The notes under the pieces are model-generated. The model was not told the origin of the DNA. It ran no database searches and was given only the letters and a program-made list of their open reading frames with translations. Made by a program: the position numbers and the translations under genes. From Micromonospora arborensis (GTDB taxonomy: Bacteria; Actinomycetota; Actinomycetes; Mycobacteriales; Micromonosporaceae), in the NCBI RefSeq assembly GCF_003205615.1, contig NZ_PYBV01000035.1, positions 1-64,000 of the forward strand: a stretch of DNA of 64,000 nucleotides, written 5' to 3'. Below are positions 5,580 through 13,537 of this stretch, in pieces. Position 1 is the stretch's first letter; each line of letters begins with the position of its first letter.

Positions 5580-8690
<3,111 letters not shown>

Positions 8691-8706
8691 ACCGCACCGC
8701 AATGAG

Positions 8707-8751
8707 ATCTTGGACAGTTATCGTTCGCGCGGAACGGTAACTGTCCAAGAT
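8707..8751. repeat. 20-bp-stem hairpin at DUF559 stop (left copy)
   Basis: Arms at 8707-8726 and 8732-8751 pair over 20 bp with one G-T wobble and a GCGCG loop. It ends exactly where the stop codon of the DUF559 gene begins and follows the cellulase by 16 bases, so it may terminate both. The outer arm shares 13 bases (ATCTTGGACAGTT) with the hairpin on the other side of the DUF559 gene. Confidence 0.9.
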
Positions 8752-9753
8752 TCACCTCCGTTGACGAGAGTGGGGTGGTGACGGGACCCAGCCGGCCGCG
8801 GTGAGGGCTCGACGGACGGTCTCGGCGACCTCGTCGGGGCGGGCGCGGATCAGCCAGGCAGGGAAGCGCAGAATCCGGTCGCCGCTGGTCCAGACGTCGT
8901 TCTGCCGGCGCATATCGGCGGCCCACTGCCGGGCATCCATGTGGTGTGCACCGTCGATCTCCACCTGCACCCGCCACTCCCGCCAGTACGCGTCCAGCCA
9001 GCGGGTTCGGCCGGCCGCGTCGACCCGATGCTCCTGCAGGTCGGGAGTGGGCAACCGATGGCGGCGACAGAGCCGCAAGAAGTCGATCTCGGAGAGCGCC
9101 TGGGCACCACCCGCGATGTCGTTGAGAGTCTGCCGGATCAGCCGCCGCCGAGGTGCCCGGGGCAGGACGTCGAGCACCGTCCGCAACTCCTCGGGCAGCG
9201 CCCGACGCTGCTGGCAACCGGCGGCCAGCAACGCCTGCGCTTCGTCCACGCCCACCGCCCAGCCCGCCGCGTCCACCAGGGCCCGTGCGGTAATGGTTCG
9301 CGGCGGACGGGCAAGCTGGAGATGGGCCGGCGGCAGGATCGACGTACGGTGTACCACCACGGAGGGCATGTCGATCGGCAGCCGACCCAGGGAACTGCGC
9401 GCCGCGCGGCGGGCGGCCGGCACCAGGACGTGCAGTGGCTCGCGCCGCAGTCCGCGTACCCCGGCCTCGGTCGCGGCGGTGACACCGGCCAGCACCGCGC
9501 CCGGCCCGGCGGCCAGCACCGCGACCCACAGTTGCTGGTCCCGGGTGAGCCGACCGTTGCCGGTCAGCAGAATCCCTCGGCAGATCGACCGCCAGCGCCC
9601 GGAGCGGATCCGACCGCGTACCGTTCCCGGGCTCAGCAAACGGGTCGTCTGCGCGGTGGTGAGAACGCCCGCCTGCTCGAAGGCGAGCCAGTCGAGCGCG
9701 TCGGCGTCGTCGGCGGGCAGCATTCCCGGAAGTCTCGCCGCGACCCAGGTCAC
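8752..9753 (-). CDS. DUF559-type nuclease-fold protein with AbiEi-like N-terminus (333 aa)
   Basis: The C-terminal residues 235-325 match the DUF559 / very-short-patch-repair endonuclease-like fold: WREWRVQVEIDGAHH (Glu and Asp of the PD-(D/E)xK core), the conserved DMRRQNDVW and FPAWLIRARPDEVAETV. The N-terminal part (20-100) resembles the winged-helix start of AbiEi/transcriptional-regulator antitoxin families (GVLTTAQTTRLL..GRIRSGRWRSICRGI). GTG at 9753 gives the full ORF; an ATG at 9723 is an alternative. The gene fits almost exactly between two near-identical palindromes. Possible roles are nuclease of a small mobile unit or defence-related protein; neither is proven. Confidence 0.8.
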   Translation of the reverse strand: MTWVAARLPGMLPADDADALDWLAFEQAGVLTTAQTTRLLSPGTVRGRIRSGRWRSICRGILLTGNGRLTRDQQLWVAVLAAGPGAVLAGVTAATEAGVRGLRREPLHVLVPAARRAARSSLGRLPIDMPSVVVHRTSILPPAHLQLARPPRTITARALVDAAGWAVGVDEAQALLAAGCQQRRALPEELRTVLDVLPRAPRRRLIRQTLNDIAGGAQALSEIDFLRLCRRHRLPTPDLQEHRVDAAGRTRWLDAYWREWRVQVEIDGAHHMDARQWAADMRRQNDVWTSGDRILRFPAWLIRARPDEVAETVRRALTAAGWVPSPPHSRQRR

Positions 9754-9760
9754 GGGCTAA

Positions 9761-9811
9761 CAGATCTTGGACAGTTGTTGCTCCGCGAGAACGGCAACTG
9801 TCCAAGATCTG
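9761..9811. repeat. 17-bp-stem hairpin upstream of DUF559 (right copy)
   Basis: Arms at 9761-9777 and 9795-9811 are perfectly complementary (CAGATCTTGGACAGTTG against its complement). They share the core ATCTTGGACAGTT with the left copy at 8707. It lies 7 bases before the GTG of the DUF559 gene and 10 bases after the acetyltransferase stop, so it may act as a terminator or as the boundary of a palindrome-flanked unit. Confidence 0.9.
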
Positions 9812-9821
9812 CGAGTGGACG

Positions 9822-10328
9822 TCAGCCGGTCAGGTCGTCGGCGAGCAGGTCCATCAGAAGGCCGTCGTGCCAGCGCCCGTCCGCGCCGCGCTCGTAGCGG
9901 CGCAGCACGCCCACCGGGCGGAAACCCACCTTCGCGTACGCCCGGATCGCGGCGCTGTTCGCCGCGGCCGGGTCGATGGTGAAGCGGTGGTGACCGTACT
10001 CGTCGATCAGGTGTCGGGCCAGGGTGCGGATGGCGTCACCGCCGAGGCCGGCGCCACGCACCGCCGGGTCGAGGAAGATGTCCAGGCTGGCGTGCCGGTA
10101 GTCCGGGTCCGGCTCGGCGTACCACTGGATCGCGCCGACCACCCGGCCGTCGTGCTCGATCGCGTAGACGTGCAGGTCGTCGTCGCCGAGGTCGGCGCGG
10201 ACGGCCTCGGTCAGGTCGTCGCCGCCCCGCCACCACCGGTGGACCTCCGGGTCGGCCCGGATCTGCGCGAGGACCGGTACGTCCGCGGCCGTCGCCGGTC
10301 GCAGTGTCACCGCCCGCCCGCGTAGCAC
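9822..10328 (-). CDS. GNAT acetyltransferase, AAC(6')-like (168 aa)
   Basis: Single-domain N-acetyltransferase. It has the start RGRAVTLRPATAADVPVLAQI, the hydrophobic beta4 VVGAIQWYAEPDP, an acetyl-CoA loop in VRGAGLGGDAIRTLARHLI and the closing NSAAIRAYAKVGFRPVGV common to aminoglycoside 6'-N-acetyltransferase and RimJ/RimL relatives. It starts 4 bases after bsaP and is probably the last gene of the bioB transcript. Whether it modifies an aminoglycoside cannot be decided from sequence; general GNATs of this type often have other substrates. Confidence 0.85.
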   Translation of the reverse strand: MLRGRAVTLRPATAADVPVLAQIRADPEVHRWWRGGDDLTEAVRADLGDDDLHVYAIEHDGRVVGAIQWYAEPDPDYRHASLDIFLDPAVRGAGLGGDAIRTLARHLIDEYGHHRFTIDPAAANSAAIRAYAKVGFRPVGVLRRYERGADGRWHDGLLMDLLADDLTG

Positions 10329-10332
10329 CGGC

Positions 10333-10530
10333 TCAGCCTCGCATCTCGCCGTGTTCTACGCAGAGCGCCGACCAGCCGACCGGCAGCACCTGCACCTTCA
10401 TCCGGCGACGGCATTGTGGGCAGAACCGGGGCGGCTCCAACTGGCGGGCCGCCGCGCAACCCGGATGGGCGGCGCTCGCCGGCTCACCGCACCGGTCGCA
10501 CCACAGCTCGGTCGTCGTCATGGTCGTCAC
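10333..10530 (-). CDS. bsaP: Biotin synthase auxiliary protein BsaP-like (65 aa)
   Basis: Small Cys-rich protein with pairs CDRCGEP and CPQCRRR, plus single cysteines at GCAA and LCVEH, as expected of an iron-sulfur or zinc ribbon protein. Its GTG start overlaps the bioB stop (GTGA), so it is translationally coupled to biotin synthase. In mycobacteria a small Fe-S protein of this kind, BsaP, next to bioB is needed for conversion of dethiobiotin to biotin. Assignment rests on position, size and cysteine pattern; the exact cluster ligands are inferred. Confidence 0.8.
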
Positions 10531-11522
10531 AGTGTGGCGGAGAGCGCCTTGACCGGCATCTTCAACTCGTGCAGCAGGTCCAGGTCGGCGGTGGCCGGTC
10601 GACCCAGCGTGGTCAGGTAGTTGCCGACGATGACCGCGTTGATGCCGCCGAGCAGACCCTCGCGGGTGCCCAGGTCACCGAGGGTGATCTCCCGGCCACC
10701 CGCGTACCGCAGAATGGTGCGCGGCATGGCCAGCCGGAACGCGGCGATGGCCCGCAGCGCGTCCTTGCCCTCCACCACCGGGCGGTCGCCGAGCGGGGTG
10801 CCGGGGCGCGGGTTGAGGAAGTTGAGCGGCACCTCGTGTGGGGCCAGTTCGGCGAGCTGCGCGGCGAACTCGGCCCGCTGTTCGACGGTCTCCCCGAGGC
10901 CGAGGATGCCACCGCAGCACACCTCCATGCCGGAGTCGCGGACCATCCGCAGCGTCTCCCAGCGCTCCTCCCAGGAATGCGTGGTGACCACGTTGGGGAA
11001 GTACGACCGGCAGGTCTCCAGGTTGTGGTTGTAGCGGTGCACGCCCATGTCGACCAGGTCGTCGACCTGCTCCTGGTTGAGCATGCCCAGCGACGCGGCG
11101 ACCTGGATGTCGACCTCGGCCTTGATGGCGGCGACGCCCTCGCGCATCTGCTTCATCAGGCGGGCGTCGGGGCCGCGCACGGCGGCGACGATGCAGAACT
11201 CGGTCGCACCGGTCTTGGCGGTCTGCTTCGCCGCCTCGACCAGCGACGGGATGTCCAGCCAGACCGAGCGCACCGGGGAGGTGAACAGGCCGGACTGGGA
11301 GCAGAAGTGGCAGTCCTCCGGGCAGCCGCCGGTCTTCAGCGAGACGATCCCCTCGACCTCGACCTCCGGGCCGCACCAGCGCATCCGCACGTCGTGGGCG
11401 AGCTGCAGGGCGGCGGGCAGGTGCTCGTCGGGCAGGTTGAGCACCGCGAGGATGCCGGCCTGGTCGAGGCCGACACCGTCACCCAGGACCTGGGTCCGGG
11501 CCTGGTCGAGGATCTCTGGCAT
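10527..11522 (-). CDS. bioB: Biotin synthase BioB (331 aa)
   Basis: Radical-SAM enzyme that inserts sulfur into dethiobiotin, the last step of biotin synthesis. The radical-SAM motif is CPEDCHFC (Cys67, 71, 74). Further BioB marks are [25 protein letters not shown] and [11 protein letters not shown]. The frame is open far upstream, but [10 protein letters not shown] begins the conserved protein. A -10 box TAGGGT (11530-11535) sits exactly 7 bases before the ATG, which suggests a leaderless mRNA. Divergent from bioF-bioD; followed by bsaP with overlapping codons. Confidence 0.97.
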
Positions 11523-11529
11523 GGCTCGT

Positions 11530-11535
11530 ACCCTA
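11530..11535 (-). promoter_or_regulatory. Leaderless-type -10 box of bioB
   Basis: TAGGGT on the minus strand, 7 bases before the bioB ATG. No Shine-Dalgarno sequence lies between them. The 150-base divergent spacer to bioF should also hold the biotin-responsive operator, but I could not recognise a BirA- or BioQ-type palindrome. Confidence 0.6.
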
Positions 11536-11672
11536 CAAGGCCCCCCGGACAACCGGAATGACCTGGCAGCCCGTCGACCCCTCGCACCGAGTGGATTCGT
11601 CGGGCCGATGACGACGGGTGGTAATTTCGCCCGGCAGGTGTCGGGCTGACCGGCGCGGACGGCGGTGAAGGG

Positions 11673-12815
11673 GTGACGGTGGCGGACTGGCTGGCGGCGC
11701 TCGACCGCCGCGCGGACCTGCGGGCGAAGGCTGGGCTGACGCGGCGACTGCAGCCGCGTCCCGCCGACGATCAGATGACCGATCTGGCCGGCAACGACTA
11801 CCTCGGCCTGGCCACCCACCCGGAGGTCACCGCCGCGGCCACGGCGGCTCTGTCGGCGTACGGGCTGGGGGCGACCGGGTCGCGCCTGGTGCGCGGCTCC
11901 ACCGACGCCCACCAGGCGCTGGAGGACGAGCTGGCGCAGTGGCTGGGCACCGACCGGGCCCTCGTCTTCTCCTCCGGTTACCTGGCCAATCTCGGTGCGC
12001 TGCGGGCGCTCGTCCAACCTCGGACGCTGCTCGTCTCCGACGCGCACAACCACGCGTCCCTGATCGACGGCTGCCGGATCTCCGGTGCGGAGACGGTGGT
12101 CACCCCACACGCCGACGTGTTGGCGGTCGCCGCGGCGCTGGAGGCCGCTCCGGGCCGCCCGGCGGTGGTGGTCACCGAGTCGATCTTCTCGGTCGACGGT
12201 GACCTCGCCCCGCTGACCCAACTACACGCGGTGGCGCGACGGCACGGGGCGCTCCTGCTTGTCGACGACGCGCATGCCCTCGGGGTGACCGGTCCGGCCG
12301 GCGCGGGCGCGGTCGCCGCCGCCGGGCTGGCCGGTGAACCGGACGTGGTGATCACCGCCACCCTGTCCAAGGCGCTCGGTGGAGCGGGTGGGGTCGTCGC
12401 CGGCCCGGCCGAGTTCATCCGGCACCTGGTCGAGACCGGACGCACGTTCATCTTCGACACGGCACTGCCCCCGGCGGTCGCCGCTGGTGTGCACGCCGCG
12501 CTGCGGCTGGCGCGGGTCGGCGACGACCTGCGCCTGGAGCTGTCCGACCGGGTGGGGTTGGCGGTCGGTCGACTGCGTGCGGCCGGGCTGACCGTCTCCG
12601 CACCGGACGCGGCGGTGATCTCGGTGACCGCCCCTGGGCCGGAAGCGGCGAGCGCCTGGGCCGCCGACTGCCGGGACCGGGGCGTCGCGGTGGGCTGTTT
12701 CCGGCCGCCGTCGACCCCGGACAGCCGCTCCCGTCTGCGCCTCACGGTCAGCGCCGGGGTACCCCGGGCGAATTTCGAGCGGGCCCTGGAGGTCATCGTG
12801 GACTGTGCCCCGTGA
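11673..12815 (+). CDS. bioF: 8-amino-7-oxononanoate synthase BioF (380 aa)
   Basis: PLP-dependent alpha-oxoamine synthase joining pimeloyl thioester and alanine. Motifs are [10 protein letters not shown], the pocket [43 protein letters not shown], the PLP Asp in [11 protein letters not shown] and the Schiff-base Lys in TLSKALGG. Length is normal for the family. Start at GTG 11673; no strong ribosome-binding site is seen. It is followed by bioD with a GTGA overlap and is divergent from bioB, giving the standard biotin set except bioA, which is not in this window. Confidence 0.96.
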
Positions 12816-13537
12816 GCGGGTGGGAGGGGCCGGTTCTGGTTACCGGGACCGACACCGAGGTCGGCAAGACCGTGGCGACCGCGGCGATCGCGGCGGCCGC
12901 GCAGGCGGCGGGGCTGCGGGTGGCCGTGGTGAAACCGGGCCAGACCGGTACGGCCGGCGGTGAGCCCGGTGACGTGGACGCGGTCAATCGGCTGGCTGCC
13001 CCGCTGACCGGGCGGACCCTGGCCAGTTACCCGGACCCGCTCGCCCCGCTGGCCGCCGCCCGGGTCGCCGACCTGCCGCCGTTGGAGTTGTACGCGGCGG
13101 TGGACGCCGTCCGTGACGAAGCCGACAAGCATGACCTGGTGTTGATCGAGGGTGCGGGCGGGCTGCTGGTTCCGATGGGGCTGCGTCCGTCGGGTGAGCC
13201 GTGGACGATGGCTGACCTGGCGGTGTCGCTCGGTGCGCCGGCGGTGGTGGTCGCCCGGGCCGGGTTGGGCACGCTCAACCACACCGCGTTGACGTTGGAG
13301 GCGCTGGACCGGCGTGCGGTGCCGGCGGGTGTGGTGATCGGGGCCTGGCCGACCAGGCCGGAGTTGGTGCACTGGACCAACCTCACCGACCTGGTGCCGA
13401 ATTTGCTCGGCGCGCTGCCGGACGGCGCCGGCGCGATGGACCCGGGTGTGTTCCGGCGTTCCGCGCCGGGTTGGCTCACCCCGGCCCTGCACGGCGTGCT
13501 CGACGACTGGCGGGTCTGGGCCGAGGAGAGCGGCTGA
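12812..13537 (+). CDS. bioD: Dethiobiotin synthetase BioD (241 aa)
   Basis: ATP-dependent carboxylase closing the ureido ring of dethiobiotin. The P-loop is GTDTEVGKT (residues 11-19), with KPGQTG and the catalytic/Mg block EGAGGLLVPM near 112-121. The GTG start lies inside the bioF stop (GTGA), so the two are translated together. Length of about 240 residues is normal. It acts between BioA and BioB. Confidence 0.96.
   Translation: MSGWEGPVLVTGTDTEVGKTVATAAIAAAAQAAGLRVAVVKPGQTGTAGGEPGDVDAVNRLAAPLTGRTLASYPDPLAPLAAARVADLPPLELYAAVDAVRDEADKHDLVLIEGAGGLLVPMGLRPSGEPWTMADLAVSLGAPAVVVARAGLGTLNHTALTLEALDRRAVPAGVVIGAWPTRPELVHWTNLTDLVPNLLGALPDGAGAMDPGVFRRSAPGWLTPALHGVLDDWRVWAEESG

Follow-up and report, generated by a model that had tools for sequence, protein, structure and literature searches.

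What is a gene for a nuclease-like protein of the DUF559 family doing between two nearly identical palindromes? The question arose from a preliminary description of a 64,000-nt stretch of Micromonospora DNA (here called the window; the window genome is 7.3 Mb), which proposed a palindrome-flanked cassette with a logic like that of REP/RAYT systems and a different enzyme, or, failing that, a gene between two terminators. From comparison with related genomes, we consider it probable that the locus is a mobile cassette of about 1.1 kb, in the order palindrome-gene-palindrome (P-gene-P), and that its protein is its own mobility enzyme.

A nuclease-like gene between two hairpins

The gene, a predicted AbiEi-DUF559 fusion of the subfamily that we call class A, occupies 8752..9753 on the minus strand (333 aa, GTG start, stop included). 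As first described, two hairpins with shared sequence bracket it: the 49-mers at 8705..8753, on the gene's 3' side, and at 9762..9810, on its 5' side, each consist of a 22-bp stem and a 5-nt loop, and both contain ATCTTGGACAGTT. This motif occurs four times in the window (twice per hairpin, ≤2 mismatches) against 0.21 expected, and 0/100 shuffles reached four. Folded as single-stranded DNA, the two hairpins had z-scores of −9.7 and −7.7, with 0/200 shuffles equally stable. Their placement was also as reported. The 3'-side palindrome (paired over 8707-8751) and the stop codon have 2 nt in common; on the 5' side, where 51 nt fold together (9761-9811), seven bases separate the GTG start from the paired end at 9761.

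The left neighbour is a long ORF (5655..8690, plus strand, start uncertain), which we take to be a GH9 cellulase with a CBM; it is convergent with the cassette gene, and its 3' part was one flank in the site comparisons below. The right neighbour, a GNAT acetyltransferase gene identified with Pfam (9822..10328, minus strand), was the flank used for finding empty sites. Beside the insertion site, positions 10527-13537 presumably hold a biotin cluster (bioB and neighbours), and the bioB stretch adjoins the gene in the other loci at this site too. No toxin gene was recognised beside the cassette gene within the window (GH9-like, GNAT and bioB neighbours). Between 8600 and 9900 there were 0 terminator-like sites with a T tract, and Rfam gave a single match, inside the gene (E 0.61, below the gathering score). 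The one match returned by a plasmid search with 8600-9900 covers 70 bp of the left flank and lies outside the cassette, and a phage search returned one record only (37% identity over 52%). Weak relatives (37%) of the protein's later part were seen in a viral contig (L348) and in an unannotated faecal phage record (MT837139.1). With only stray or weak matches in the plasmid, phage and viral-contig searches, carriage of the cassette by phage or plasmid was set aside.

An AbiEi-like fold joined to a predicted nuclease domain

The DUF559 assignment made at the outset was upheld, by a Pfam match of the window protein barely above the cut-off (20.7 v 20.6 bits). The PADLOC AbiEi model matches it as well (E 2.9e-11), and no match to PF01797 was found. 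Among 61 aligned sequences, DUF559 was met by sequence in 57, AbiEi_4 in 18 and PvuRts1I-like_N in 9, and E222, D254, E265, D267, H271 and D280 were invariant.

An AlphaFold2 model (mean pLDDT 87, pTM 0.83) gave the same division. Residues 18-214 (9112..9702, minus strand) resemble the AbiEi antitoxin 6y8q (VIA-align Z 12.1, rmsd 4.0, 178 aligned; Foldseek E 7.8e-5), and the N-terminal ~200 residues resemble the Rv2827c structure 1zel (Z 8.0). MenT1 nucleotidyltransferase toxins are matched too, by residues 69-217 (Z 9.7 and 9.2, below AbiEi), a match that we provisionally assign to the AbiEi-like region. Residues 217-322 (8788..9105, minus strand) align with the endonuclease-like protein 3hrl (Z 8.9, rmsd 3.7, 83 aligned), presumably itself a DUF559 protein, and with the I-Bth0305I catalytic domain 3r3p (Z 8.1, rmsd 4.7, 86 aligned). 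These nuclease Z-scores are close to the level reachable by unrelated folds, and the Foldseek matches are weak (E 0.36 and 0.57, respectively); the DUF559 sequence match stands beside them. In structure comparison, a fold missing among the matches excludes nothing. As modelled, then, the window protein combines an AbiEi fold with a homing-type nuclease. Eight gene pairs had dN/dS of 0.08-0.26, so the protein is under selection. Three class A genes have frame breaks (L260, M. tarensis; L297, sp. AMSO31t; L300, M. yasonensis) and are possibly decaying copies or assembly errors.

The palindrome is a dispersed repeat

The preliminary description had suggested counting the palindrome genome-wide, and it proved to be repeated. 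The window genome holds seven copies (≤3 mismatches), five of them away from the cassette, and none of these five lies within 9 kb of any of six DUF559 places (E ≤ 0.001). Exact-arm copies were present in 83/151 genomes of the genus, from 0 to 24 in each; the reversed control gave none. Nearly all copies listed have the same length. One lone palindrome of the window genome (L011:4996-5044) carries two mutually compensating arm changes (ACACTT/AAGTGT). Elsewhere, two similar coding stretches, which we take to be DUF397-like, lie on either side of a class A palindrome (L002:4918-5700), as though a duplication spanned it.

Over 95 distinct copies, 11/22 stem pairs had changes on both sides, and stem covariation was above all 500 shuffles and all slid versions. 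The set was chosen by a pattern fixing TCTTGG/CCAAGA and a mostly paired interior. Pairing in the outer columns is therefore no evidence, and the paired fraction is too high; the signal is the variety of pair types in columns 10-22. A stem longer than 22 pairs was rejected, as columns 23/27 and 24/26 paired no better than shuffled and the 5-nt loop is unpaired. Read along the gene, A-C stem mismatches outnumbered G-T ones (17 to 9 on the 5' side, 13 to 3 on the 3' side; 30 to 12). If wobble pairs matter, this is a possible hint that the folding strand is the one opposite to the gene; because the loci are related, we draw no conclusion about the folding strand.

Gene and palindrome change together

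The genus has three subfamilies of the gene, mostly each with its own palindrome alongside. At a hairpin score of 11 or more, the 50 class A rows (71-100% identity) divided into 30 with a hairpin at each end of the gene, 11 with the 5' one alone, 7 with the 3' one alone and 2 with none. Both sides were occupied in 18/27 class C rows (locus G022 entered twice) and in 10/20 class B rows, and an equally strong hairpin was present in 9/388 background windows; loci from close species are non-independent in such counts. Among class A 3'-side hairpins, 31/34 begin somewhere from 4 nt before the base that follows the stop codon up to that base itself; thus the palindrome often supplies part of the stop.

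A palindrome common to both sides was found at 41/78 named loci v 0/390 shifted controls (two of the 80 named loci had flanks too short to judge), including loci from Catellatospora, Hamadaea and Planosporangium. The remaining 37/78, which include the two Plantactinospora and the two Actinoplanes loci, had no palindrome in common between their sides. Class C genes pair with AAGGAA-type palindromes and their relatives, and class B genes with a third kind. Within the window genome, a paralog (51%) has a different palindrome on both its sides, which further backs the cassette first proposed. The class C AbiEi-DUF559 cassette of this genome (L006, G000:C115:98502-102419), its second, has AGATCTTGGAAGGAA-type palindromes on both sides.

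The three-class profile matched 69/296 genomes of the taxonomic class at E ≤ 1e-45. Loci outside the genus (38-46% identity) were read by eye with no separate control, and 10/27 had a clear shared palindrome of yet other sequence, one flank being too short to judge. The pairing of gene and palindrome is well supported by these sequence comparisons.

Sites are filled, empty and exchanged

Clustering of 3.5-kb flanks placed the 35 class A loci (34 named loci and the window) in at least 10 neighbourhoods, and a marker comparison separated one further class A site. Both flanks of the window's own site, site 0, were common to 13/35 loci, and those of site 1 to 9/35. Cassettes with both palindromes align edge to edge between sites (for example, L005 1450-2559 with L048 1432-2543). 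Neither a target-site duplication nor a fixed head sequence could be seen in the inspected flanks, and the differing flanks could come partly from rearrangement.

Empty sites, which the preliminary description had proposed seeking in close relatives, were found, several of them retaining a single palindrome. Among the 30 genomes that best matched site 0, 4 were filled, 1 held a gutted remnant, 5 had one strict palindrome and 20 had none, and several of these 20 still align up to the palindrome's edge. G024, which has no class A gene at E ≤ 1e-60, carries a single palindrome between the GH9-like and GNAT genes, and the flank alignments enter it from both sides. Because several gene-less relatives keep one hairpin at the site, filled and empty states differ by the gene and one palindrome. 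One filled site-0 cassette (G091) is without the 3'-side palindrome.

At site 1, 30 chosen genomes comprised 10 with a complete lone class A palindrome, 1 with half of one, 2 with a class C-like palindrome, 6 with another palindrome and 11 with none. With class C-like or other palindromes in 8/30, some slots simply accept palindromes. The left flank in G024 matched 9/9 site-1 loci and the right flank 5/9; of these five right-flank matches, one is directly beside the palindrome and four set in at about 180 nt. In five loci (L181, L183, L185, L193 and L200) site 1 is filled by another palindrome, of TCGGGGTGTCC...GGACACCCCGA type and variants, and in L201 a further one, GTCGAGCTGCCCCAGATCTGG, partly tandem, sits in the same slot.

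In three genomes (G072, G110 and G034) the gene is at site 1 while site 0 has a lone palindrome; three others (G004, G079 and G091) show the reverse. G083 has palindrome-fragment-palindrome at site 0 and an intact copy elsewhere; no single copy was clearly closest to the remnant. The class A gene (≥70% identity) occupied one place per gene-bearing genome and so does not multiply as insertion sequences do. Gene distances track those of a GNAT-bioB marker (Mantel r 0.82, 22 genomes), the gene changing at about twice the marker rate. Moves thus appear rare, and the cassette has more probably relocated within lineages than passed often between them by horizontal transfer. Two pairs, G000/G109 and G091/G079, in which the gene was 3 to 4.5 times more distant than the marker, may be exceptions.

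On these comparisons the mobility of the cassette is well supported, and the original proposal of REP/RAYT-like logic gains from both the empty sites and the 10 or more sites among 35 loci. That proposal had named two observations that would speak against it. One, a locus at the same place in all relatives, was not what we found, though site 0 is widely shared. The other, lone palindromes beside unrelated genes, was seen. Both the shared site and the lone copies are what a REP-like family would show.

Palindrome number and gene presence

A full class A gene was present in 59 genomes; palindromes accompanied it in 54 (median 7, total 437), up to two of which in each genome are the cassette's own. 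The 87 gene-less genomes had a median of 0 and a maximum of 6, with palindromes in 24. Five partial-gene genomes were set aside (6, 1, 2, 3 and 1 palindromes). All 26 genomes with at least 8 palindromes carry the gene, as raw counts that ignore kinship; an independent-pairs check on 30 genomes had only four usable pairs.

Five of the 59 gene-bearing genomes had no exact palindrome copy. One of them, G098, has a variant motif, CGAGTT, which is present in both palindromes flanking the gene in G149 and in G098. CGAGTT palindromes were most numerous in these two genomes (7 and 3, respectively), where two flank the gene and 5 and 1, respectively, are lone. Five other genomes had one or two each, so the motif is not exclusive to the pair. 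G051 has CGAGTT palindrome(s), yet common-type copies flank its gene, and G149 also holds one common-type copy.

How the cassette may move, and what else could explain it

An AbiEi-nuclease fusion that binds and cuts its palindrome fits the anatomy of the locus, in which the palindrome would be binding site, cassette end and landing site at once. The protein itself would do the moving. Its AbiEi-like N-terminal module would bind the 49-bp palindrome as an inverted-repeat site, and the fused DUF559/homing-type nuclease would cut at or beside the bound palindrome. Repair from a P-gene-P copy could then turn a lone palindrome into P-gene-P; both states are present among the genomes, and the reaction and its direction are our proposal. 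By this step the gene would home from palindrome to palindrome. Recombination or slippage between the two palindromes may delete the gene and leave one, a direction of change with which the observed single-palindrome sites are consistent. The same activity may seed or maintain lone palindromes, a cause that would account for the correlations seen, and palindrome number would then depend on the gene and palindrome sequence would track it. The 5' palindrome may double as an operator for autoregulation, by analogy with AbiEi.

The last step but one, seeding, alone separates this mechanism from another reading, in which the palindromes are an independent REP-like family of other origin, which the DUF559 gene merely exploits as targets in the manner of a homing parasite. 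As the first four steps are shared, our confidence in the two readings overlaps. Single-palindrome empty sites at two loci and the gene-less genomes that hold palindromes (24/87) would suit a parasite. The gene's presence in every palindrome-rich genome (26/26), the change of palindrome sequence between gene clades and the sharing of a variant motif by lone copies argue the other way, and we consider this reading unlikely, if deserving of real weight.

Rather doubtful, too, is that the palindromes are operators of the AbiEi module, serving autoregulation, with host recombination moving the cassette passively and the nuclease having another role, for example in defence. Binding of AbiEi and Rv2827c to inverted repeats at the promoters of their own genes is described in PMC7319586. 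One palindrome does lie close upstream of the start codon, and its 49 bp equal two AbiEi repeats and their spacer. However, there is a second palindrome, which abuts or overlaps the stop codon; lone copies are found near unrelated genes, and two genomes have lone copies with the same variant motif as the gene's own; and at different sites it is the palindromes that bound the cassette. For homologous recombination, moreover, arms of only some 22 bp would be short.

Movement of palindromes and cassette in trans by a separate Y1/RAYT-type transposase is very improbable. Y1 transposases do occur in 43/151 genomes of the genus, but no Y1_Tnp (PF01797) was found in the window genome at E ≤ 1e-5, and Y1 was present in 9/26 palindrome-rich v 34/125 other genomes (Fisher p 0.48), a comparison that covers the Y1 family. 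This candidate was rejected on both counts, its absence from the window genome and the lack of association with palindrome richness.

The first description's own alternative is that the hairpins serve only to terminate transcription; this, or a role limited to stabilising mRNA 3' ends, is kept as a rival that is weakened and now very unlikely: palindrome copies lie a median of 93 nt from the 3' neighbour v 493 nt from the 5' neighbour (crude ORF calls over 34 rows, with one copy entered twice and at least 4 flanking the gene or a gene piece), and one slot, as at site 1, can take different palindromes, but no terminator-like site was found in 8600-9900, primary sequence is conserved and differs by gene clade, and the two flanking copies travel with the gene.

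Relation to known systems

The likeness to REP/RAYT systems (PMC2817692) is extensive. In both, two palindromes flank the gene, one of them at its stop codon; gene and palindrome types co-vary; palindrome number goes with the cognate gene (raw counts in our case); the gene evolves faster than neighbouring sequence (here about twice as fast as a marker); and a given gene type is not multicopy. The enzyme differs, being here a predicted AbiEi-DUF559 nuclease and in RAYTs an HUH tyrosine transposase. The present repeats are in actinomycetes and reach up to 24 exact copies, not hundreds, and this gene changes its chromosomal place, as RAYTs were not seen to do (PMC2817692). The consensus of 33 5'-side and 30 3'-side copies had no conserved flank of the GT(A/G)G head type.

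The EDxHD homing endonucleases, represented by I-Bth0305I, offer a second comparison. The likeness of nuclease is at the level of fold (Z 8.1; Foldseek E 0.57), the gene is inserted at a site that is empty in relatives, and the target on which I-Bth0305I dimerises is likewise long, at nearly 60 bp (PMC3943268). Their site is an interrupted allele, whereas here a free-standing ORF carries an AbiEi-like DNA-binding part, and its presumed target is a dispersed extragenic palindrome that stands whole on both sides of the gene. As the enzyme that defines RAYTs is absent and strict homing remains a conjecture, we file the cassette under neither.

Type IV AbiE toxin-antitoxin systems (AbiEi, Rv2827c) share the fold of the N-terminal ~200 residues and inverted-repeat sites of 49 bp in all; in PMC7319586 the sequence bound by AbiEi is two 23-bp inverted repeats 3 bp apart, which by our own sum gives 49 bp, equal to the palindrome length here. 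They differ in the nuclease fusion, in the palindrome at the 3' end as well and, as far as the window neighbours show, in the toxin gene, none having been recognised beside the cassette gene there. IS200/IS605-type elements and MITEs have hairpin ends and short, gene-less palindromic relatives, as does the cassette. Unlike them, it has no Y1 transposase in the window genome, and its empty site keeps one palindrome.

A search of the open literature, by titles and abstract openings, gave nothing on DUF559 genes with palindromes among the matches listed. The available portions of RepRanger (2025) and of a GTAG/CGTC survey (PMC3733652) do not name Micromonospora, nor does that of RepRanger name DUF559. 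The same portion of the survey describes CGTC repeats without a known dedicated enzyme, and in the literature examined, RAYTs are the only dedicated enzymes named for REP palindromes.

Implications

Somewhat more cautiously than for the locus itself, we favour the view that the AbiEi-DUF559 fusions form a new class of mobile gene that homes to palindromes and seeds short palindromic repeats across actinomycete genomes, the hairpin of each clade being at once recognition site, cassette end and landing site. Such a system would be of REP type yet would have arisen on its own, from a fusion of nuclease and antitoxin, and its N-terminal specificity would shift with the palindrome. The comparisons point to mobile DNA of a kind so far unrecognised, centred on an enzyme with no known part in DNA mobility. 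If this is true, there is a second, unrelated class of enzymes with cognate palindromes, and partnerships of gene and palindrome arose more than once. DUF559, a family of unknown function, would gain a testable role, and many natural pairs of protein and hairpin would be available for working out how one recognises the other.
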